Positions 4,132-64,000 of a stretch of DNA of 64,000 nt are shown piece by piece. Position 1 is the first letter of the stretch; every line of letters begins with the position of its first letter. Where the stretch lies: assembly GCA_037355855.1 (NCBI GenBank), contig CM074758.1, forward strand, positions 7,041,001-7,105,000, given 5' to 3'. Under the pieces are notes generated by a model. That model ran no database searches. It was not told the DNA's origin and saw only the letters and a list, made by a program, of their open reading frames with translations. The position numbers and the translations under genes are program-made. The DNA is from Pseudo-nitzschia pungens (lineage: Eukaryota; Bacillariophyta; Bacillariophyceae; Bacillariales; Bacillariaceae).

Positions 4132-4950
4132 CGGTGCATTATAAGGTGCATTTAGAAGTGCATTGTACAGTGCATTATTGATACAGGCTTATGTATAAGA
4201 TTTGAAATCAAAAGTGATTTCAAGTACGGTAAAACTTAGTTCATACTTTGTATTGGTGGTATTTGTAGTAGTACATTTCATTGTGCATTTTAGGTTGAAT
4301 TATACCGTGCATTTTGTTGTGCATTGTACGGTGCAATATGGTGCATTTTGAAGTACACTGTACGGTTCATTCATTTTAATGTATGTTGCATTATATGGTA
4401 CATTTTACTGTGCATTTTACATTGAATTATATCGTGCATTTATTGTACAGTGCAATATGGTGCATTTTGAAGTGCATTGTATGGTGCATTATTTTGCATT
4501 TTGAAGTGCATTGTACGGTGCATTATTTTGCATTTTGAAGTGCATTGTACAGTTCATTATTGATACAGGCTTACGCATGAGATTTGAAATCAAAAGTGAT
4601 TTCAACTACTGTAGTTACCATACCGTAAACCTTACTTGTTCATTTTAATGTACGTTGCATTATACGGTATGGTACATTTTACTGTGCATTTTACATTGAA
4701 TTATATCGTGCATTTATTGTACGGTACAATATTGTGAATTTTGAAGTGCATTGTATGGTGCATTATTTTGCATTTTGAAGTGCATTGTACGGTGCATTAT
4801 TTTGCATTTTGAAGTGCATTGTATGGTTCATTATTGATACAGGCTTATGTATAAGATTTGAAATCAAAAGTGATTTCAACTACCATACCATACCATAAAT
4901 CTTACCGTAAACCTTACTTGTTCATTTTAATGTACGTTGCATTATATTAG
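4132..4950. repeat. GTGCATT-rich satellite with higher-order duplication
   Basis: Short degenerate repeats of GTGCATTTTGAAGTGCATT and TGTACGGTGCATT type fill this stretch. A longer block starting TGATACAGGCTTATGTATA and running through AAATCAAAAGTGATTTCAA recurs at about 4178, 4561 and 4834, so the array has a higher-order period of about 270-380 bp. AAATCAAAAGTGATTT is itself an imperfect palindrome. It lies directly downstream of the degenerate Ulp1-type gene. Confidence 0.8.
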
Positions 4951-16943: not shown

Positions 16944-17175
16944 GGCTGATTCCACTTTGTACCTTGGTTTTGTCTTCTGTTCCTGCTTCTCATCCTGTCC
17001 CATCCCTTTGGATACTGGGTCTTGTCCCACTATCTCCATTCCCATCTCACTTGCTCTCAAGTCCCTAATGTGTGGGACTTGTTTTGTTCCTTTCCCTGTC
17101 TGATGTTCAAGGTTTGTTTGAAAATTTGTCGTTCTACCACTTGGGGTCCTGACTCTCTGATGGAGGCGACGTTAA

Positions 17176-17217
17176 AGTCTGGTTACAGACTGAGTAATTT
17201 AGTTTCACCTTTGGTGA
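17176..17217 (+). promoter_or_regulatory. LINE 3'-terminal double hairpin
   Basis: AGTCTG-GTTA-CAGACT (17176-17191) and TCACC-TTT-GGTGA (17205-17217) lie about 35 bp before the ATT-repeat end. The same pair occurs in the LINE copy ending at 62190 and, reversed, in the fragment 33698-33870. Confidence 0.6.
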
Positions 17218-17255
17218 TTAAATTTATTTCAATACGTATATTATTATTGAGTAGG

Positions 17256-17792
17256 AGCCAAAATGTAATTTTGAACAATATCATGTAGAATTAGTACTGG
17301 AGAGATTTCTCAACGAGTTGCCTTGGAGATGCTCTGTAGAGCCGTGTAGAAAAATCTACTACCAGATGAAGGTCAAAATGCCCTAAACTCCCCGAGTTAA
17401 TCTGATTAAAAATGGGGGGATCAGCTGATAGGAATTCCGTAGTACGTAATTACATAATCATCTAAAAGTCAGTACAGGTAATCTTAATTACGGTAAAACC
17501 TTATTTGTACGAGTTTACAGTAAGTAATACGCGGTAACCTTAACCTTACATGGTACAGTACGGTAATTAATTTTTTACTGTACCGGTATGTAGAATTAAA
17601 ACGGGTTAGGGGTGATGGTGATGGTGCGGTGAAAGACTGATGTTTTCAGAAATGGTTGAGGGGAAGGCAGGAAATGGAGCAGAATTTTCAACAAAAAATT
17701 AGCATAACTTTTCGTTTCTTCTGAGAGCGAGATCGATGATGATGGTAAATAACCTTACAAGTAAACCTTACGTAAACCTTACTTGTACGAGT
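17256..17792. other. Intergenic, with half of a small MITE
   Basis: No gene was seen. Bases 17410-17446 contain GATCAGCTGATAGGAATTCC followed by GTAGTAC, matching one arm of the small inverted-repeat elements at 39855-40116, so this is probably a MITE remnant. GTAAACCTTAC-type words are frequent near 17470-17790. Confidence 0.5.
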
Positions 17793-17797
17793 CTCAC

Positions 17798-18052
17798 TGT
17801 TGGGATATGCCTTATTCCTCTAGGGACAAGGCCATACACATACATGGTATGAGAGGGCACAGAGCTGGGCGGTGGATGACAGACCGATTCCCGACCACAT
17901 AAATAATGTGTGGTGACAAATCTGTGATACCGGACAGCCAAGTTACCATTCACCAATTTACCGACATACACATAGTTTAATTTCTTGTATCTAACCAACA
18001 GAGTTTATTTGATCTCTTTAAGGTTTTCGTAGAACTCCTACTGAATTTAACA
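17798..18052 (+). repeat. Copia 5' LTR
   Basis: It starts TGTTGGGATATGCC and ends CTGAATTTAACA, with TGTT/AACA inverted termini. It contains a TATA-like CACATAAATAATGTG (about 17897-17911) and the site TAGTTTAATTTCTTGTA (17973-17989) that is complementary to the bases directly after the LTR. Confidence 0.95.
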
Positions 18053-18069
18053 TACAAGAAATTAAACTA
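18053..18069 (+). promoter_or_regulatory. Candidate self-complementary primer binding site
   Basis: TACAAGAAATTAAACTA sits exactly at the LTR boundary, where the primer binding site of an LTR element belongs. It lacks the TGG expected for tRNA 3'-CCA priming. It is a perfect reverse complement of 17973-17989 inside the LTR, as in the self-primed Tf1 group. Confidence 0.65.
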
Positions 18070-18186
18070 CGGTGTTCGGACAACCGAATCGAAACCACCA
18101 TAGTGTTTCCTCACCAGCACGTCGAGTAGATACACATCCTCCGAGCAAAACAAAAAGCGCTGTAGCAGTTGATTTTATCCTCCAGC

Positions 18187-21100
18187 ATGGACCAACTCAA
18201 CACACCCAACACACCAAAGAGCCCCGATGCAACGAGCACGCTCACCAGCAACAACCAGTCGAGCGGCAGGTCTCGAAATCACAATCGGCGCGGCAACAGT
18301 AACAACTCCTCAACAGGAAGCGGATCAACCGAGCGCAAAGCGACTGATTGCAAAACTGATCGCAAGTTTACAGGTCTCGACCAAGATGAATTGAAGGGAA
18401 CTGTAATTGATGGATCTAAATCAGGACAGTATGACAAGCTATTTGAGGGACTAAAGATTGTGGCCGGAAAGAACAATCCAAAGGTCAAGACCACTCTCAT
18501 CAACATGAAGAAACTCACCGAGGAAGATTTCCAACCACCCATGCCGAAGCCTGAACAGTACAGCACTTCAAGCCCAGATGGAACAACCCTGGTCGACCAA
18601 GATAAGAAATGCCTCCTAGAAGAGTTGTGGATAAAGAAAGGAGAACGATCGGCAAAGAAGTTTGAAGACTACTGTGAGGATCTAACAAGTTTGTTCTCTA
18701 CCATCGAGGGACAGCTAAGCCCCAGAGTAAGACAACAACTCAAGACCAATGAGCAATGGGGAGACGCGGAGCTCAACCAAGACACCCTGAAATTGCTTGT
18801 CATACTCAGAGAATATTGTTACCGGGACAGTGCAACCAAGGTGCACCCAATGGTTGACACCATAAACAAAATATACAAGTTCTTCTCCTGCTGACAGGAT
18901 GGAACCAAAGATGCAGCAACATATGCTGAAGAAACCAAGGCACGGCTAGACGTACTCACCTCAGCTGGTATTTCCATCCGATCGAAAGCCATGATCAAGC
19001 TGGCTCTCGCAAATTCGTTCCAAGGGAAAACATATGAAGACTATGAGGAAATGAGCACCGACGATCAGTCCAAGGTGCACAGAGTGATGGAAGAGATGCT
19101 ACTCTCAGTTGTCATCGTAAATGGAAGCAACAACAAGTTGCACCGAAACCTTTCCGGAGTACTCAAGGACAACTACAGTCTCGGAAATGACGTATATCCA
19201 ACATCCCAGCCCAAGGCGTTGGAATTATTGAACCAATACAAGTCGACCCGATCATCTGGCGGCCAAGGCAACAACACCAATACCGGTCGTACCGACAAGA
19301 AGAACGACGGGACAGCTGATGGAGCAGCCCTGGTAACCAATGGAATCGAAACCAGTGCGGCCGAGGAAGGTCACAGTTCGGATGATGACAGCACAAGATC
19401 AGAACCCTCGAACGGATGTAATATCTCTGAGGCAGCTCAAGTCCTCATGGCGGCTTTGGATGACGACTCGGACACCGAGGAGGAGCTCTGTTTCGTACAG
19501 ACCTTCTCCACTGTGGAGTCTAACAGCGCCGATCAAAACCCCAGGAGTGAAGGGAGTGATCTAACTCCTGAAGACTCCAGGAGTGCGGCGCGGATGGAGG
19601 AATCCACCGCAAAACCCAGGAGTGGGGAAGGCCACGAGGCGCACCATCAGGGAGAGCACATATTCTCCCAACATGCCGCCGGGTTCATTAACCCATATTG
19701 GGTCCTGTTGGACAGTCAAGCAACATGCAATTGTGTCAGTAATCCAGACCTCCTTAAAAACATCCAAGTACACCCTGATGGCAAGAAGATTCGTATACAC
19801 TGCAACGCGGGTGTAGTACTTGTCGACAAAATAGGAGAGTTACCTGGGTTTGGAACAGTCTGGTACCAGGAAGGGGGAATGGCAAACATCTTGTCCCTGA
19901 GCCTAGTCTCCAACATGTACAGGGTAACCCTGGACACGGGCATCGCACAGTCTTTCTTTGTCCACAAACACGATGGGAGCACTCGCCAATTTCGCAGAGC
20001 CGACAGCGGACTGTACTACTGCGATCTAAGAACCACACATGGCACAGTATTAGCCATTACCTCCGTGGAAGGCCAAAAGGAACTGTACTCGGACCTGGAT
20101 GTCCGACGCGCCACCAAGGCACGAAAGCTCCAAGACATCCTTGGCTTTCCGAGCAAGAAAGAGTTCCTCAAACTTATTGATAACAACATCCTTCTTAACT
20201 GCCCGGTCACTCGCCGGGACGTCCTAATTGCAGACGATATATTTGGGTCAAACACAAACATCATCAAAGGCAAATCAGTGCGCTGCCAGCCGGCACATGT
20301 CCGTGAAGACATTGACCCAGTGCCATTTGCCATTCTTCACCGGTACCGTGATGTGACCATCAGCATTGACATTTTCACTGTAAATGGAATCAAGTTCTTC
20401 CGAAGCGTGTCCCGACACCTATACTTCCGGACTGTCTCAGCGATTGAGGACGCTTCCCAATCCACCATTGAGCGCACACTGAACGCAATAGTCGGGCTGT
20501 ACTCAGGGAGGGGGTTCGTGGTCACGTGCATCTCCGGGGACAACGAGTTCAACTGTTTAGCAGAGGGGTTGCTCGCGAGGAACCCACCCATCCGGTTCGA
20601 AGGGGTAGCCAGAAACCAGCATGAACCATACGTTGAGCGAGACAACAGAACCTGCAAAGAGCGAATCAGATGCCTATTCGCATCGGTGCCTTTTAGGCGA
20701 CTTCCTCGCCGAATGACCATTGACATGGTCGCTGCTGCTATATTCTGGTTGAATAATTGGTGCAATTCAGTTGGGGTGTCATCAACTATATCCCCCCGAC
20801 AACTGATGACCGGCGTGCATCTGGATGCCGGGAAGCACTGCAAGTTCCAGTTTGGCGACTATGTCCTAGGGCACGAGGATGCAAGTAACAACACCATGGA
20901 GCCGCGCGCCCGGGACGCTATATATCTTCGGCCAACCGGCGACCGTGGTGGGGCAATATACCTATTCGACCTCAAGACCGGACGCCGCATCCGGCGCCAG
21001 ACAGCCACAGCTGCACACATGACTGATACCATTGTGACCAGGGTCGAGCAAATAGCACGGGAGCAGAACGCACCGATAGGGGTGGTGTTCGGCAACAAAA

Positions 21101-23638
21101 ATGGGGATACTACCATCCTAGACCTAGAAACAGAATCAGTCGGATCCGATGATGGAGCTTCAGACCATTCTTTCCAGCCAGACGACGACTCCACTGTAGA
21201 CACTGATATTAGTGGGTCGATCGATGACGCTGAACTTACCGACATCCGTCTGGATATGGACAACAACCACGAGGAGGACTCGTCGGGGAGCGACACCGAG
21301 AGCATATCAAACCACGACCACAATGAGCCACACCATGGTGATATCAGCATTGCCAGTGTCCCGAATGAAGTGAGTGATGGGGAAAGTTATGGTGATGAGG
21401 AGAGTTGTATTGAAAGTGCCAGCTACGCGACTAAGGACGATGAAGCGTTGGATCACGGCACTGCGTCGGTTGGAGCGGCAGACGCAACCGGCGGGCGCAG
21501 TCCCGCACTGCCAGTGTGTAGCAACGACCGTGTGGCGAGCCCCAATGCATGTGACATGACTAACAACATGCCGGACGGCGATGAAATGGACGCGGCCGGC
21601 GACGGGACACCATGCGGAAGCGAAAACGGAGATCCACTCGCAGAAGCGAGCGAAGATATCGACCACCACAGTATTACAGACAATACGGAGGAGCGCTCGA
21701 CAATGACGCTAAGACCGAGGGTTACCCGAGGACACAACAAGTTCGGCACAGCAGACGGATTCGAATCCAACGTACATCACAGAGCCCACACATCGGTGCA
21801 CGCCGAACATCTTCTCTGGGGGATTCAAGCGGGCCGTGAAGCGCTTGGAAAGGGTGCACGCCCAGTATGTCTTCATTTCAAATGCTATTGCATCATACAA
21901 CAACATTGACGCATCCCTAGTCACCAAGCAGTACAGCATCAAGGCGGGCTTGAAGCTGTTCGGAACGGCCGGGGTCGAAGCGGTCCTAACTGAGCTGAAG
22001 CAGCTACATGAGCGACAAGTGGTGCACCCGGTGGATGTCAGAGGCCTCACTTGCGAGGAAATCAAGCGAGCACTTCCATACCTAATGTTCCTGAAGCGAA
22101 AGCGATGTGGGAAAATCAAGGCAAGGGGTTGCGCTGATGGTCGCACACAGCGCGACTTCATCTCTCGGGAGGATACCTACTCACCAACCGTCTCCCTACA
22201 TGGACTCATGTTGACCTGCCTTATCGACGCAATTGAAGGACGCGATGTTGCCACAGCTGATATACCCGGGGCTTTCCTGCAAACGCCAATGCCAGAAGGA
22301 GAGATTGTCCACATCCGATTTGATGGTCCAATGGCAGAGCTGCTGGCCAGAATCGATCCAACCACGTATCGAAAATATATGCTCGACCGCAAAGGACACA
22401 AGGTCCTGTACACTCAAGCCGACAAGGCCATATATGGAACACTCAGAGCGGCGCTACTGTTTTGGGAGCGCTTATCTGGACAACTCACTCAGTGGGGGTT
22501 TGAACTTAATCCATATGACTCGTGCACAGCAAACAAAATGATCAATGGACACCAGTGTACAATTGTCTGGCACGTTGATGACCTAAAGATCTCTCACAAG
22601 GACCCAAAGGTTGTGAGCAAAATCCTGGATGATTTGAACAGCGTGTTTGGCATTGAGGCACCTCTGACAGTAACGCGTGGCCGAGTCCACGACTATGTGG
22701 GGATGACAATCGACTACAGTGACCCGGGCAAGGTAAAGTTTAGTATGTTTGACTACTTGGAAGGGATCGTCAGCGAGATACCGAAGGAACTCCAAGAACA
22801 GAGAGTGATCCCAACACCAGCCTCAGACCATCTGTTCAGGGCCAACCCAGATGGAATAAAATTGAAGCGCCGAGACGCTGACACGTTCCACAAACACGTG
22901 GCACAGCTCCTGTTTGCAAGCAAGCGAGCACGGCCCGATATACAAACAGCGATTGCATTCCTCTGCACTCGCGTTGCTGACCCAGATGAAGATGACTGGA
23001 AGAAACTCAAGCGCGTTCTGGGTTATGTGAAAGAAACCATCTTTCTACCTCTGGTCTTGGGCTGGGACAACACCGGCAGCGCCTACTGGTATGTGGACGC
23101 ATCATTCGCTGTACACACAGACATGAAGAGCCACACCGGTGGTGTTTTAACATTCGGACAAGGGGCTGTGCTAGCAGTATCAACAAAGCAAAAGCTAAAT
23201 ACCAAAAGCTCAACAGAGGCCGAGTTGGTGGGAGTCGACGATACACTACCATACAACCTGTGGTGCCACTATTATTTGGAATGGCAGGGATACGCTGCGC
23301 AGGTCGACCATGGAGTTAACAAGGACGCCACCAACTATCTTGGCAAGGACAATATCCTAAATCAAGACAATACAAGCGCGATGAAGCTGGAGATGAACGG
23401 TAAGTCATCCAGTACCAAGCGCACCAGACACATTGATATCCGATACTTCCTTATCACAGATCGAGTGAAGAATGGAGAAATATCCATACAGTATTGCCCG
23501 ACTGGGGACATGCTGGCAGATTACTTCACAAAGCCCCTCCAAGGATCTCTTTTCCGAAAGTTCCGGATCACCATCATGGGTGTTAGTGAAAAGGAATTCA
23601 TGGCCTACAAGAGACAATATGAGGAAAGAAAGGCATAA
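18187..23638 (+). pseudogene. Copia gag-pol, interrupted by an in-frame TGA and a frame change
   Basis: Gag begins at ATG 18187 and is open to TGA 18892-18894. The same frame continues past the stop (QDGTKDAATYAEETKARL) to 21909, so the TGA lies inside gag. Further on are the protease motif LLDSQATCNCV (about 19695), and integrase acidic residues SIDIFT (about 20365), SGDNEFN (about 20540) and an E in VERDNRTCKERIR (about 20635). An acidic Asp/Ser-rich linker follows. RT and RNase H lie in the next frame: from about 21830 there are GRTQRDF, ADIPGAFLQTP, WHVDDLKISH (catalytic HVDD), YVDASFAVH, KSSTEAELVG and the terminal ADYFTKPL, to 23638. The +1 shift occurs between about 21765 and 21835. 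Because the LTRs are identical, programmed recoding is an alternative to decay. Confidence 0.85.
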
Positions 23639-23694
23639 TAAGTATTATCTATTCGATGATGTGTTTATGAACACATCAACGAGTAGCAGGAGTG

Positions 23695-23949
23695 TGTTGG
23701 GATATGCCTTATTCCTCTAGGGACAAGGCCATACACATACATGGTATGAGAGGGCACAGAGCTGGGCGGTGGATGACAGACCGATTCCCGACCACATAAA
23801 TAATGTGTGGTGACAAATCTGTGATACCGGACAGCCAAGTTACCATTCACCAATTTACCGACATACACATAGTTTAATTTCTTGTATCTAACCAACAGAG
23901 TTTATTTGATCTCTTTAAGGTTTTCGTAGAACTCCTACTGAATTTAACA
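23695..23949 (+). repeat. Copia 3' LTR
   Basis: This 255-bp direct repeat is identical by eye to the 5' LTR. It is followed by target duplication CTCAC. No strong polypurine tract is visible just upstream; the closest is GAGTAGCAGGAGTG. Confidence 0.95.
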
Positions 23950-24234
23950 CTCACCACAAAATCAGTAAGATTTACAATACGACTGCAACATCTCTCTTTC
24001 CTCGTTGTCGACCACAAGAAACTTGTGATCAATCAATCCGATCTAAATCCACTTCGTATCAACATCAAACGAAGAAATCCTGTGTACGGACTGCCTTAAC
24101 GGACCTCATCCACCATTGACAAAGGAGATCGAACCTTACCAACCGTACCCATAGATAGCCTACTCGAAGCATAAATTAGTGGAAGAAGATCGACAACAAT
24201 CTCCTATTTCCGCGCGTTTTCCGTAGAGACGAAA

Positions 24235-27200
24235 ATGACGAGAGGGAAGAATGATACGACAACTTTCACGCTTGAAAATCGAATGAGAGCAGATAGAGAT
24301 AGAAAGGATGTCGTTCACAGCAATCAGAAGAGATTTCGGTCTGTCTTGCCCCACGAACCTCTACCAAACGACAGCGATGGCGTCGACAACAAGGGATTTG
24401 TTCATCTTCAAGGAGCATTTGAGCCTAAGCGAAAACCTTCGCCGCAGAGCACAGAATCGGAATCCACCCCTGAACCGAGCCCTTACTGGAAGTCTACCGA
24501 AGCATTAGAAGAAGCTATTCTTTTAGCACTTCGCGATCAGCACGAACGGCTTCGATTACCGTTTCCTGTTTCATCGATTCATGTTTTGGACCCCAAAAAC
24601 TTCTCGAGACTGCGGCTGGTATATGATTGTCCCTACGAAGCTCTTCAAATTCAGTATGCATTCAGAGACCAACGAATCTCCCCGCAAGATATCTTGCTTC
24701 CTATTGTGAAAAGTCGTGATTGGAGTGAACAATATGAATCTGACGGTTCTATTTTGTTTGGATCTCGTGCCTGCCAAGCTACTTTGATTACGACAAAGCC
24801 TTTGCCCGAAGACACCTCTACTTATTGGCCAAGGTCTAATCCGCCTCAGTTCAGGCGACTTTTGCACGATCGAGGGAATGATGAACGGGAACGAACCCAA
24901 ACTAGATTCGTGTACGTCACTGGTCTAATCGACAACAACAACAAGGTGAAGACAACGTTGAATACAACAGATTGGTGGAACGACAAACCATTCGCTGTTT
25001 TCCGTTCTATACGAGAAGTCTTTGGAAATGATGTCGAAATCTTCCTCCCAAAGAAACAAAGTCGTCAGCAGCATCAAATTCAATCCTGTCACTTAGGATT
25101 CAGATCGGCAAAGGATGCTCAACGAATCGTAAGAGAATATCAGGGTCGCGTTGTGGCTTGGAAATTCCACGACAGCGCGAAGAAAGCTGGTGATGTGCAA
25201 GAGGAAAAACAAGAACAGTCTTTGACCAGCGGGCAACTGTTTCTTGATTACGCAACCATTACGCAGAAATCAAAGGCCAAAGAAAAGGGAGAGTACGAAA
25301 AAGGTCAGGGAGACATATCTCGACCAGAGTGCACATCAACTACCTCTCACGTTCAAATACCGGGACTAGTAGTAATCGAAAACTTTCTTACCGAAGCAGA
25401 AGAAAAGATTCTAGTAGCAATATTGTCTGGTCCTCAAGCACCATGGGCTCCTCAGCAAATCAATAAGAGCCAAACAGGCACGGTGAAAAGACTTGTCCAA
25501 CATTACGGATATGTTTTCGATTATCAAACGGCTGATGTGCTGCGGCGACACGAAAACACACCGTTTGCCGCCGACTGTCCTCCCCTGCCAGCTATCGGAA
25601 CGAAAACAGAGAACGATGATCTAACCAGTATCGATGATTTAGTACAAGAAGGGAAAGGGTGGGAAGTTTTGGCACGTGTAATCGAAAAAACTAGACACCA
25701 GCAATTTGAAACAGGGCCTTTCACATCCGATGAAGGAAAAAGCGATGAAGAAAGCTGCCAAGAAGCAACTACAAAGACGACGTCCTTCTCTCATTTGAAC
25801 CAAATGACAGTAAATCAATACAAGCCGGGAGAAGGAATTGGCTCTCATGTAGACACTCCATCCGCGTTCGGAGATGGCTTGATAAGTATTAGCTTAAATA
25901 GCGGGATCGTCATGGAATTCACGAAAGTCACAAGAGAACACGAAGATACCGCTAGTACGTCTTCCATGCGTACCAAAAAACTCGTATACCTACCGCGCCG
26001 ATCTCTGGTTCTCATGTCAGGTCCAGCACGTTTTGAATGGGAACACCAAATCGTGACACGACGAACGGACACACATAACGGCGTGGTATTACCTCGAGGT
26101 TTGCGCATTAGTCTAACGTTGCGAACAGCATTATCATTGGGTGGTGAGCCTTTGCCTCGTTTTGAATCCGATAAATTTCCACCAGTATGGGGAGGAACTT
26201 CCGAGAAACTACACCCATCCAGCTCAGAGAGCAATGCATTGGTTACGCCGAGTACAGAACGCGATCACGTCCATGCGGTCTATGATGCGATTGCAACGCA
26301 GTGGCATCATACAAGGGGAAAACGGGGAGTTCTTTGGCCAAGTGCCACACAGGCAAGTTAGAGTTGTTGCAAGTGATTAGACCTAGTGCAGTGCGCAAGA
26401 CATCTTCCAAGCCGTGAATCTTACTTGGTGCTTGCTTTCCGTTGTTCTCATTTGTTTGACGACGGTGATTTTGAAACCAGTTCGTTCAAAATTTGCCCGA
26501 AGGTTCCATTGTTGCTGATGTGGGCTGTGGCGATGGTAAGTATTTTCCTGCAATCTGGGAGGCTGGCTCCTATGTCATTGGAACGGATATAAGCCTTCCA
26601 CTTTTGGAAAGTTCATTTGATGAATCGAGTGGCAGTACTGTACCAGATACCAGAGAAGTCAGTGGCTACCGACAATCTCTGCAGAAGCGACCTGCAGTGG
26701 CAGTTGCCGATGCAATGACGGTGCCTTTACGGAGGCAATAGTTGCGATGCGGCTATTTGCATAGCGGTCATGCATCACTTGAGCACAACTGATCGCAGGA
26801 TACGATGTATCGAGGAATTGTCTCGGATTGTGAAGCAAAGTGGTAGGATTCATATCCAAGCTTGGGCGATGGAGCAAGCTGCTGATAGCAAACGACGATT
26901 CGCAGCACCTGATGTGTTTGTACCTTTCAATGCTCAACCCAAATATTTGGATAAAATATCTGAGAAGATGAAGGGTGCCGAATCGAGGAGAGATCAAAAT
27001 AAGTCGAGACAAGGTGGGTCTGATTCCACACCAGTATCTCATTCGTCGAAAAGTGTCGCTGAGCTGTATTCTGAAGCTTATGATAAAGCAGATTTCGACG
27101 AACGAAAGGGTCTTGTGGTTTTCCAGCGATATTGCCATATGTACCGAAAGGGAGAATTGGATGATCTCGTCTCTCAAATTCCCAGCGTCCGACTAATCGA

Positions 27201-39854: not shown

Positions 39855-39956
39855 AGTAATACTACAAAATTCCTATCAACTGTCCCCAGGTTCTACATCC
39901 CCAACTACTAATTTCTACGGAAACCTGGGGACAGCTGATAGGAATTCCGTAGTACT
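39855..39956 (+). mobile_element. ~100-bp MITE, copy A
   Basis: The arms AGTAATACTACAAAATTCC and CTATCAACTGTCCCCAGGTT on the left pair with AACCTGGGGACAGCTGATAG and GAATTCCGTAGTACT on the right, around a ~30-bp loop (TCCCCAACTACTAATTTC). No coding capacity. The outermost bases are themselves palindromic, so the exact target duplication is unclear. Confidence 0.75.
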
Positions 39957-40017
39957 ACGTGTACGTACGAAGCAAGTCTTACTCGTACTTCAGTACGAGT
40001 AAGATAACGTATTACGA

Positions 40018-40116
40018 AGTACTACGGAATTCCTCTCAGCTGTCCCCCGGTTTCCGTAGAAATTAGTAGTGGAGGATCTAGAACCAGGGGACAGCTGATA
40101 GGAACTTTGTAGTACT
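40018..40116 (-). mobile_element. ~100-bp MITE, copy B, inverted relative to A
   Basis: The same arms occur here (AGTACTACGGAATTCC, AGCTGTCCCCCGGTT, and AACCAGGGGACAGCTGATAG on the right). The loop GTAGAAATTAGTAGT is the reverse complement of the loop in copy A, so the two copies lie head to head about 60 bp apart. Confidence 0.75.
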
Positions 40117-46364: not shown

Positions 46365-46462
46365 CTTAGCCCCAGGGCCATCCGATGGTTTTATTTTCGC
46401 GCGGTTTTTGAGGACCGCGCGAAAAGTTATAACCGTTAAAAACCGTTAATGACCGTTAACTT

Positions 46463-47290
46463 TAGACGCATAACTATGCGTCTAAAAAAGTTTTTAGACG
46501 CATAACTATGCGTCTAAAAAAGTTTTTAGACGCATAACTATGCGTCTAAAAAAGTTTTTAGATGCATAACGCGTCTAACTTTAGACGCACTGTGCGTCTA
46601 AAATTTTTTTAGGACGCATAATTATGCGTCTAGACGCATTGGTCCCGTATAATGGTACGCAGGCTAGTACAAGTTTTAGACGCATAATTATGCGTCTAAA
46701 AATTTTTTAGACGCATTGTCTTGTATAATCCTACGTAGCCTGGTACAAGTTTTAGACGCACAAGAGTCATTCTCGAAATCGTGACACGACCCAAGTAACT
46801 GAAAGTTGACTACGAAAGGCTTCTAAATAATTATTGAATCCCGCATCTACTTCAATATGATATTATGTACGCATAACAAACATCTACTGAATATTCAACG
46901 TACAGGGAAACACATACAGTTCGATACTGATTGGATATCAAGATAAAAAAGATTCCCATGACTCGCTGATTATTGATATTATGCCCGACAAGCGTTATGC
47001 GTCTAATAATTTTTCAGTTTACTACTGAGTTCTACGCTAATTTGGACCAGTTGTGCGTCTAAAAAAATTTTAGACGCATAACCCTGTAGAATTGTACACA
47101 CGTTAGTACATGTTTTAGACGCATAAGTTATGCGTCTAAAAAGTTTTTAGACGCATAGTTATGCGTCTAATATTAGACGCATAACCCACGATTATGCGTC
47201 TAACTTTAGACGCATAGTTATGCGTCTAAAAAAGGTTTTAGACGCATAGTTATGCGTCTAAAAAAGTTTTTAGACGCATAATTTTAACGT
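46463..47290. repeat. Clustered palindromes TAGACGCATA-NN-TATGCGTCTA
   Basis: More than ten copies of a palindrome with half-site TAGACGCATA are spaced by poly-A/T runs (AAAAAAGTTTTT). The first three full units are about 32 bp apart near 46463-46560; more lie at 46620, 46680, 47060, 47115, 47150 and 47205-47280. Unlike CRISPR arrays, the spacers are not unique sequence. Confidence 0.8.
46765..46987 (+). repeat. Partial gypsy-type LTR-like insert inside the MITE
   Basis: Similar to the 5' half of the LTR at 8878 (ATTATTGAATCCCGCAT, ATATCAAGATAAA, GATTCCCATGA, GATTATTGATATTATGCC). ACAAG flanks it on both sides (46760-46764 and 46988-46992) and could be a 5-bp target duplication, though the insert does not begin with TG or end with CA. 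Confidence 0.5.
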
Positions 47291-62190: not shown

Positions 62191-64000
62191 TGCTGTTTCA
62201 ATAAATTCAAGGTGTATCTTTCTGGCTTGAATCCAGGATCGAAACCAGTGGAGCCGGAGGGCATAAAACTTTGATCTTACTGTGTGTGGACCTGGTTCTA
62301 ACCTTGCCAGTATGAGTGCGCCTTGGTTATCTTCGTGGACTGTAGCTTTGAATGTAACCTTCTGCGGGTTACTGTACTGGAGACCCTTGAGTACAGACTT
62401 AAACACTTTGAGCATTGGTATGGCTGCTCGCAATGCCATCAATAGGACTGTGTACTCTGACTCCATTGTGCTGGTGGCTATTGTTGACTGAAGCTTTGAT
62501 ATCCACAGGACCGGACATCCAGCAATCTCTATGATGTACCCAGTCCGGGACTTGACCGATTCAGGATTAGTGCAGTCTTCAGTTCCCCAGCCACTGGCAA
62601 ATGCCGCGTCCACATAGATGTCTAAGTCCAGGGAACCTGTTACATTTGGTTTAAGGATCAATCCCTTGTCCATCGTTCCCTTTAGGTATCTCCCGATTTG
62701 TATGAGTGCTAGTTTGTGTGACCATTTCGGTGAGTGAACGTAGCGTGCTACTTGCGAAGTAGCCATGGCTATATCACATCGGGAGTGTCCTGCTAGGTAG
62801 TTTAACTGTCCAACTATGGAGGCATAGTTGAATTCTCTGTGTGCTTCTTCCCCGTTTTCGTTGATTGGCAAGTAGTGTGTACACGGGGTTCCGAGTGGGG
62901 TGATTGATTTATCATTCAGGTGAAGTCCATCCACGATGGTCTTGGCGAGTCCTTTCTGCGTTAGGTGGATGGTGCCATCATCTCTTCGGTCTATAAGTAC
63001 GCCTAGAAATCCTGCAACGTCTTCCTCCTCACAAAAGGGGACCTTTGCATCCTTGATCTTCTGCGTTAGTCTGTCCATTGCCTTGGTATCCTTGTAAAAT
63101 AGCAGTGCGTCGTCTATGTTGATGAGACAAATGACGTCGTCAGAGATAAAGAGACAGGGATCTGCATCAGATTGTTTGAATCCGAACTTCTCTACTAGTT
63201 GATTTCTGGTGTGCAAAAAGAAGTTTCTTGGACTTTGCGCTAGTCCGTATAGACTCTTGTTTACTCACCACACCATGTTTGGGATAGCGAAACCTGCGGG
63301 CATTTCAATGTAAACCAAGCAGTCAATCTGAGCGTGGACAAAAGCAGCAGTGTAGTCAATTTGTTTAGTTTCAAGATCCATAATGATACTCATGATCAGT
63401 AACAATCGAACAGTAATCCACATGACAACTGGTGCAAACGTTTCGAAATAATCGACTCCCTTTTCTTGTTCAAAGCCTCTTGCGCAGTAGCGCGCTTTGA
63501 GCTTCTTAACCGATCCGTCGGGGTACCGTTTGCGTCGAAGTGCCCATACAGTACTCCTGAGATTACCTTTTGATCAGTTGGGCGCTGTACTATATTATCG
63601 AAGACGTTTAAATCGATCAGGGTTTGAATTTCTATCTCCATTGCCTTAACAAATCCAGCTGCCTCTGGACTGGCCATTGCTTCAGGAAGCATAGGGTTGT
63701 CTTCCTTATTTGCCATTGTTGCGAACGCGGCAGGATTCAGGTAGTCAAGGAGGCCATTGCCGTTGCTGTTAAGCTGATGTTCTGCAATAAAGCTGTTAAG
63801 AGTGGTTAGGCTTGTTCCACAGAGCTTCACTGGATGGTGGCCAAGTATTGCTGATTTAGCTTGGAGTAAGGCACGCGAGGAGGCCGGTCAGTCCCACGAA
63901 AGTTAATTTGCCTGGAGCCAGATGGGTTTGGTCGCTGATCCAGCATGAGGCTGATGAGGTCCCGCTGTTGGTCGCGCGGTGTAAAGAGATTGAGCCGTTG

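Follow-up and report, generated by a model that had tools for sequence, protein, structure and literature searches.

How does a Copia element start its minus strand when the bases behind its 5' long terminal repeat (LTR) are complementary to a site within that same LTR? This question is raised by an element in a 64,000-nucleotide stretch of Pseudo-nitzschia pungens DNA (the window; G000:C1:7041001-7105000), and the genome searched for an answer comprises 66.9 Mb in 28 contigs. The element, located at 17798-23949 of the window, can be classified as an LTR retrotransposon of the Ty1/copia superfamily. Its 5' LTR (17798-18052, + strand, 255 nt) and 3' LTR (23695-23949, +) have TG...CA ends and are 100% identical (255/255), indicating a recent insertion, and they are flanked by a 5-bp target site duplication, CTCAC (17793-17797 and 23950-23954), as in Ty1/copia. 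A putative polypurine tract GCAGGAGTG is located directly 5' of the 3' LTR (23686-23694, +), and the same or a similar sequence precedes the 3' LTR in most sibling copies with a resolved LTR start.

The coding part consists of a gag-like frame (18187-18894, +), an integrase-like frame (18991-21909, +) and a reverse transcriptase frame (21836-23638, +), the last of which is read in a different frame from the preceding one. The reverse transcriptase matches Pfam PF07727 (RVT_2; E = 9.5e-12, 45.5 bits against a cut-off of 31.6), which is the Copia type and not the Ty3/gypsy reverse transcriptase of the Tf1/sushi group (chromoviruses). No integrase was matched by Pfam. In an alignment of 21 sequences, D61, D118 and E150 of the integrase-like piece are among nine invariant columns, and by position in the aligned piece they correspond to residues 460, 517 and 549 of the frame. 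One homologue (P0282) is named "integrase catalytic domain-containing", and a PDB comparison gave 13 weak, non-significant matches, 12 of them to chains of retroviral integrase or Gag-Pro-Pol (E 0.79-2.1). The reverse transcriptase profile only retrieved four HSP90 matches from PDB, which were judged to be chance or low-complexity hits, and an NCBIfam search gave no match. The only listed homologue that names an organism (P0052) comes from another diatom, Fragilaria crotonensis.

The gag-like frame was recognized by its position and its conservation in siblings and has no match in Pfam. It ends at an in-frame TGA (18892-18894) that is absent at that place in the siblings L004, L006 and L008, the gag of L006 having its stop further on. 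The frame is broken in the window copy, which may therefore be mobilized only in trans; considering also the two differing pol frames, this copy may be unable to move alone. A host gene adjoins the element (24235-26361), and its product is 95% identical to a P. pungens protein (taxid 37318) and 74% identical to one of P. multistriata, which makes the host a Pseudo-nitzschia species, either P. pungens or a near relative. At the window edge (62908-63552, - strand) there is a second Copia reverse transcriptase (RVT_2) with one internal TGA.

The first-pass annotation of this stretch had claimed an exact self-complementary primer binding site (PBS) with an exact boundary and without the usual TGG start, and all of this was confirmed. 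The PBS TACAAGAAATTAAACTA (18053-18069, +) is the perfect reverse complement of 17973-17989 (+) in the 5' LTR over 17 nt, and it follows the LTR, which ends at 18052, without a gap. TGG is absent from its start and was also not found in 18053-18079. Counting a further pair between 17990 and the last base of the LTR (18052), the helix has 18 bp. Among exact inverted repeats of at least 12 nt with arm starts 40-160 apart, it is the only one in 17000-24500. When the LTR was shuffled 10,000 times with its dinucleotides preserved, the complement counted from PBS base 1 reached 11 nt at most, against the observed 17. The RNA of 17972-18090 folds with this pairing as its closing stem (z = -4.61). The 3' LTR carries its own copy of the primer site at 23870-23886.

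Whether the match is kept by the element can be read from its relatives. R-U5 sequences of the window's group (group 1) are present at many genome sites and were found by pattern and similarity searches. We summarized 57 LTR-like sites, namely 55 LTR sites with no more than two mismatches and the pair at C7:0.93, while sites with three mismatches were taken in only in part. They comprise 27 junctions of a 5' LTR with a PBS, 26 3' LTRs and four sites without an intact PBS. Left out of the 27 were a truncated site (L069), a decayed one without a recognizable LTR end (L086), one with an insertion at the site (L097) and a single LTR (L101). Half of the LTR pairs (13 of 26) are without any observed difference over 236-327 nt, which means that the elements moved recently.

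The PBS is complementary to the element's own LTR at 17 of 17 bases in 23 of the 27 junctions, and each of the remaining four has one mismatch. For the copies at C5:4.22 and C1:3.29, the mismatch exists against the 5' LTR and not against the 3' LTR, indicating a 5'-LTR mutation later than the insertion. In C8:1.95 the outermost base alone differs, and in C7:2.13 PBS base 12 is mismatched to both LTRs; for this single internal, uncompensated mismatch a later mutation is the only explanation offered. Taking the 3' LTR for the two mutated copies, there are ten primer versions with six variable positions. In the 19 distinct segments, 322 of 323 cells are standard pairs and 319 of them are Watson-Crick; the four exceptions are three G-U pairs and one mismatch, and two of the four trace to the 5'-LTR mutations. 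Six of the 17 pairs have changed on both sides, in a compensatory way. The covariation score is 0.221, compared with 0.066 in shuffled alignments (reached by 0 of 500) and 0.006-0.030 with a slid partner. The count of further pair types, one of five covariation measures, did not exceed the shuffles (61 of 500 reach it). These shuffle counts are not probabilities, since the copies are related and their changes are not independent events.

A second LTR set (group 2) was uncovered by the primer search with two mismatches and is not matched by the window LTR as a query. Its TAGTTTAATATCTTGTA matches were first taken for unpaired strays and proved to be a second self-complementary group, which was then collected with a 279-nt query. 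The group-2 LTR runs from TGTTGAATAATT to TTTACAAGA, with bounds set by the target site duplications TACGG and ATTTG in two copies. Its PBS consists of the 15 bases after the LTR and is the complement of a site starting 74-79 nt before the PBS. Among 41 matches listed, 25 were taken as possible junctions and three as 3' LTRs. A PBS is present in 23 of the 25 loci, and it is complementary over all 15 bases in 21 of these 23 and partly so in L151 and L161. In L152 (C1:5051660-5051830) and L153 (C10:131420-131600), which have group-2-like LTR ends, the complementary PBS is replaced by an unrelated sequence TTCCGTTCGGTTCGG that is the same in both; here either the PBS is of a different kind or the elements have inserted into repeated DNA. 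A subfamily (L127, L156, L157) differs from the other group-2 copies read in that its complement is two bases longer and takes in the CA. Group 2 has seven primer versions, 4 of its 15 pairs have changed on both sides, and its covariation score is 0.214 against 0.046 in shuffles (0 of 500 reach it); further pair types were again not above the shuffles (145 of 500). The first-pass annotation had suggested that sibling copies be aligned to see if both halves covary, and they do so in two element groups, with one uncompensated internal mismatch in the 27 junctions of group 1; this joint change strongly supports a genuine pairing.

The assignment of group 2 to Copia comes from one copy, L170, a 1.3-kb piece in which RVT_2 is matched at E = 0.0007, below the cut-off, the piece ending early. 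L170 shares 43% identity with the window pol (residues 8-244), while the best 30 of 150 listed RVT_2 stretches of the same genome are 21-25% identical to that of the window, mostly over residues 86-315. This suggests, short of proof, that groups 1 and 2 are one clade, since different regions are compared and the 30 stretches are the top scorers among 150 listed.

Outside the host, the window pol alone found no relative in viral or prokaryote genome collections. A profile of 16 proteins found none in viral contigs, and the R-U5 pattern had no viral match; an IMG/VR contig (L171) that matched a PBS-like pattern had no matching LTR site in its surroundings by eye and was taken as chance. The same profile retrieved two loci from bacterial metagenome-assembled genomes (MAGs). 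One of them (L177) was set aside, with 62% GC and its sole inverted repeat 1.5 kb beyond the match. The other, L176 (JAJTHV010000262.1), is a contig of 5,336 bp from a MAG that bears the label Flammeovirgaceae, and its reverse transcriptase is 50% identical to that of the window in the best segment; we take it for a stray eukaryotic contig. It contains a single LTR between pol and gag, an arrangement that a circular form, a tandem or a collapsed assembly would give, and with only one LTR on the contig the LTR end is not fixable. Its only exact inverted repeat of at least 12 nt in the 40-160 span is located between LTR and gag. There, by eye and by folding, CTAATTTCTGATAAT (4515-4529, after a CA) pairs with ATTATCAGAAATTGG (4630-4644) over 15 bp with one G-U (fold z = -5.58), a third version of the self-complementary sites, and none of 300 mononucleotide shuffles contained a 13-nt repeat of this span.

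The LTR comparisons also point to a position for the RNA start. Of 30 partial matches to other families in a gapped search with the window LTR, one begins at LTR position 147 and the other 29 at positions 165-171, which lie 3-9 bases before the CA at 174-175 (17971-17972, +). Ungapped identity among 11 group-1 representatives is 0.27-0.30 at -60 to -11 and 0.47 at -10 to -1, with bases -3 and -2 invariant, and it rises to 92%, 88% and 96% downstream, with the primer site as the anchor of the comparison. For six group-2 representatives the values are 29-33%, 47%, and then 94%, 97% and 62%. Such an ungapped profile overstates the drop in U3, because U3 contains indels and some representatives share shifted U3 pieces. 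The CA stands directly before the primer site in 27 of 27 group-1 junctions, in 19 distinct group-2 segments, which were collected by a motif that includes CA, and in L176. The pattern would fit a transcribed R behind a divergent U3, with the CA as putative initiator, the primer sequence (17973-17989) as the probable RNA 5' end and start of R, and 17990-18052 (+) as the rest of the presumed R-U5. This last part is kept between families and includes the blocks CTAACCAACAGAG and CTCTTTAAGGTTTTCGTAG.

On this basis the RNA probably starts at A 17972 or T 17973. In the 27 junctions the PBS base opposite A 17972 is C or G and never T, which leaves two possibilities, an RNA that begins one base later or a capped first base that escapes copying. 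A start at A 17972 thus needs the extra assumption of a first base that is not reflected in any of the 27 PBSs.

From the above, we propose, with a probability of about 0.9, that this diatom Copia element uses its own RNA 5' end as the primer of minus-strand DNA synthesis, in the manner of Tf1. The first-pass annotation had already offered a Tf1-like reading, and it is supported by the covariation in two groups and by the lack of a fitting tRNA in the set tested. In the process envisaged, transcription would start at the conserved CA, giving an RNA that begins with the 17-nt primer. This 5' end would fold back onto the PBS, or pair in trans with that of a second packaged RNA, and would then be cut after 17989 by a nuclease, which the example of Tf1 suggests is the element's RNase H. 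The freed 3' end would then prime the copying of U5 and R. Priming from the PBS edge would also fix the LTR end at 18052. Later, plus-strand synthesis would copy the primer RNA, and the PBS would be rewritten from R in each cycle. Such rewriting would explain why the pairing is nearly always perfect Watson-Crick and why its halves change together. The few G-U cells would likewise be the expectation of re-copying, rather than of slow compensation through G-U steps.

A broader claim is that a large diatom Copia clade is ancestrally self-primed and defined by this mode, which would have arisen independently of Tf1/sushi and of the plant lineage TAR. Its primer would be heritable and would evolve freely, since with the PBS rewritten in every cycle a changed primer still finds its target, and the element would no longer depend on the tRNAs of its host. 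We regard this reading as an even bet.

Among the alternatives, the most probable one keeps self-priming and differs in the source of the primer, which would be supplied in trans by another RNA of the element or by a short R transcript, either abortive or processed. LTR elements normally package two RNAs together. An RNA dimer is also stated in the consulted part of the Tf1 literature (PMC7175516), and cis and trans pairing are not distinguishable from sequence. Nothing speaks directly against a trans primer; the cis fold is favourable, and we consider the trans form a real but rather unlikely variant.

It is very improbable that the stem is instead a structural or regulatory RNA hairpin under selection, acting in translation, dimerization, packaging or polyadenylation, with some other primer in use. 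The stability of the stem (the z-score given above) and a loop with further conserved blocks and predicted stems would suit a hairpin of this kind. Against it, the complement starts at the first base after the LTR in both groups, a place set by the start of the minus strand, and the sequence that follows, up to 18079, is free of TGG. G-U intermediates are also rare, two of the four non-Watson-Crick cells being mutations of the 5' LTR after insertion.

That a host tRNA or an internal half-tRNA primes at 18053-18069, with the LTR match a coincidence, is nearly refuted, because the PBS varies as its own LTR varies, through ten versions, which a constant host tRNA cannot explain. Complete tRNAs or half-tRNAs are the primers reported for most plant Copia groups, with half-tRNAs in Osser, Bryco, Gymco-II and Bianca, according to the part of PMC6317226 consulted. 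A search of the host tRNAs, which the first-pass annotation had proposed, was run on 22 tRNAs (20 loci) tested directly, and the longest complement to the window PBS, which has no TGG start, was 7 contiguous Watson-Crick pairs, or 9 with G-U. In this set, a lower bound, the PBS corresponded neither to the 3' end nor to an internal half of a tRNA, as it would in tRNA-primed Copia. The tRNA list as a whole is also a lower bound, with at least 67 matches and 63 of 4671 candidates scored. By coordinates compared by eye, none of 98 genome sites with no more than two mismatches to the primer overlaps the 67 listed tRNA matches. A reversed-pattern control gave 67 sites against these 98, and chance therefore accounts for many of those with two mismatches; a one-mismatch site (L130) with no complement upstream was also taken as chance.

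Some observations on tRNA-like sequences stand apart from this question. Among those listed, tRNA matches cluster in repeated blocks at C7:4.80-5.22 Mb, C5:5.86-5.98 Mb and C2:7.117-7.157 Mb, which look like organelle DNA in chromosome contigs, through either nuclear insertion or assembly artefact. The CTAACCAACAGAG block of the R-U5 resembles the complement of a tRNA D-arm (L144).

As a contrast set, we took the 5' pieces of four other Copia elements (L172-L175), in which no 11-nt inverted repeat with arm starts 30-240 apart was found. A recognizable LTR end exists in L173 only (G000:C1:138200-138850), which together with L044 belongs to a different Copia family with a 1782-aa frame. L172 shared nothing with its own 3' locus, and L174 and L175 are 5' pieces only. 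In L173 the LTR end TCTCAACA is followed by a palindrome TTCTTCGAAGAA, and its LTR contains no PBS complement of 11 nt or more; the arrangement resembles the Conserved Hairpin Site of GalEa elements. A palindrome without an LTR complement, here in one copy of one family, indicates that self-priming may not be general in this host.

The window contains further repeats of other kinds. Dense inverted and direct units TATGCGTCTAAAAA / TTTTTAGACGCATA fill 46461-47290, perhaps a satellite or a foldback element. Nested inverted repeats of 12-22 nt with the unit GGAATTCCGTAGTAC occupy 39880-40090, and this unit also occurs at 17431-17445 and beside another LTR (L099).

Which of these features are new depends on the systems already known. 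Self-priming has been worked out in Tf1 and, in the literature seen, is a prediction for Copia in one plant lineage. The first-pass annotation had considered the arrangement unusual for a Copia element, and a precedent does exist: the consulted part of PMC6317226 already predicts this mode for the plant Copia lineage TAR (Houba, Osr-1), as well as for the Tcn1 chromoviruses. For diatoms, the open-access literature searched gave no report of self-priming. CoDi elements are, like the window element, Copia elements of diatoms (PMC2806351, PMC8147415). The main text of PMC2806351 contains neither "self-prim" nor "tRNA", and its sole PBS is a wash buffer; the main text of PMC8147415 mentions no primer, PBS or tRNA, and self-priming in diatom elements is not described in the consulted parts of PMC3601003 and PMC5445492. 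Copia self-priming itself is therefore a known proposal, and what appears to be new is a self-priming Copia clade in a diatom that is supported by covariation.

Its value lies in 50 natural junctions, 27 with ten primer versions and 23 with seven, which give genetic evidence of pairing without experiment. From the junctions the RNA start can be predicted with a margin of 1-2 nt and the cut at single-base precision, and whether the PBS is re-copied from the primer becomes directly testable. For annotation, it is relevant that in Cyclotella cryptica only elements with a detected PBS were kept (PMC7466962, in the part consulted). Repeat annotation that requires a PBS could lose elements like these if PBS detection relies on tRNAs.

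Compared with the fungal GalEa elements, the diatom element is likewise a Copia without a tRNA PBS and has an inverted repeat at the PBS position. In GalEa this Conserved Hairpin Site is palindromic, and no complement to it in the LTR was found by the authors (PMC5445492, in the part consulted), whereas the complement of the diatom PBS sits in the LTR. With plant TAR, as far as its priming mode is described in the source consulted, it shares predicted self-priming within Ty1/copia. TAR differs in being a plant lineage and a prediction, while the diatom element offers exact complements in many copies and compensatory change. In Tf1 of Schizosaccharomyces pombe, a Ty3/gypsy element of the Tf1/sushi group, the first 11 RNA bases pair with the PBS and RNase H cleaves between bases 11 and 12 (PMC7175516, in the part consulted). 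The diatom element resembles Tf1 in that the PBS adjoining its LTR is complementary to the first bases of its RNA, whose start is predicted here, and that apparently no tRNA primer is used. It is distinguished from Tf1 by a Copia reverse transcriptase (RVT_2), a primer of 15-17 nt instead of 11, a diatom host and a cleavage predicted by analogy; it probably works like Tf1 and is not a member of Tf1/sushi.
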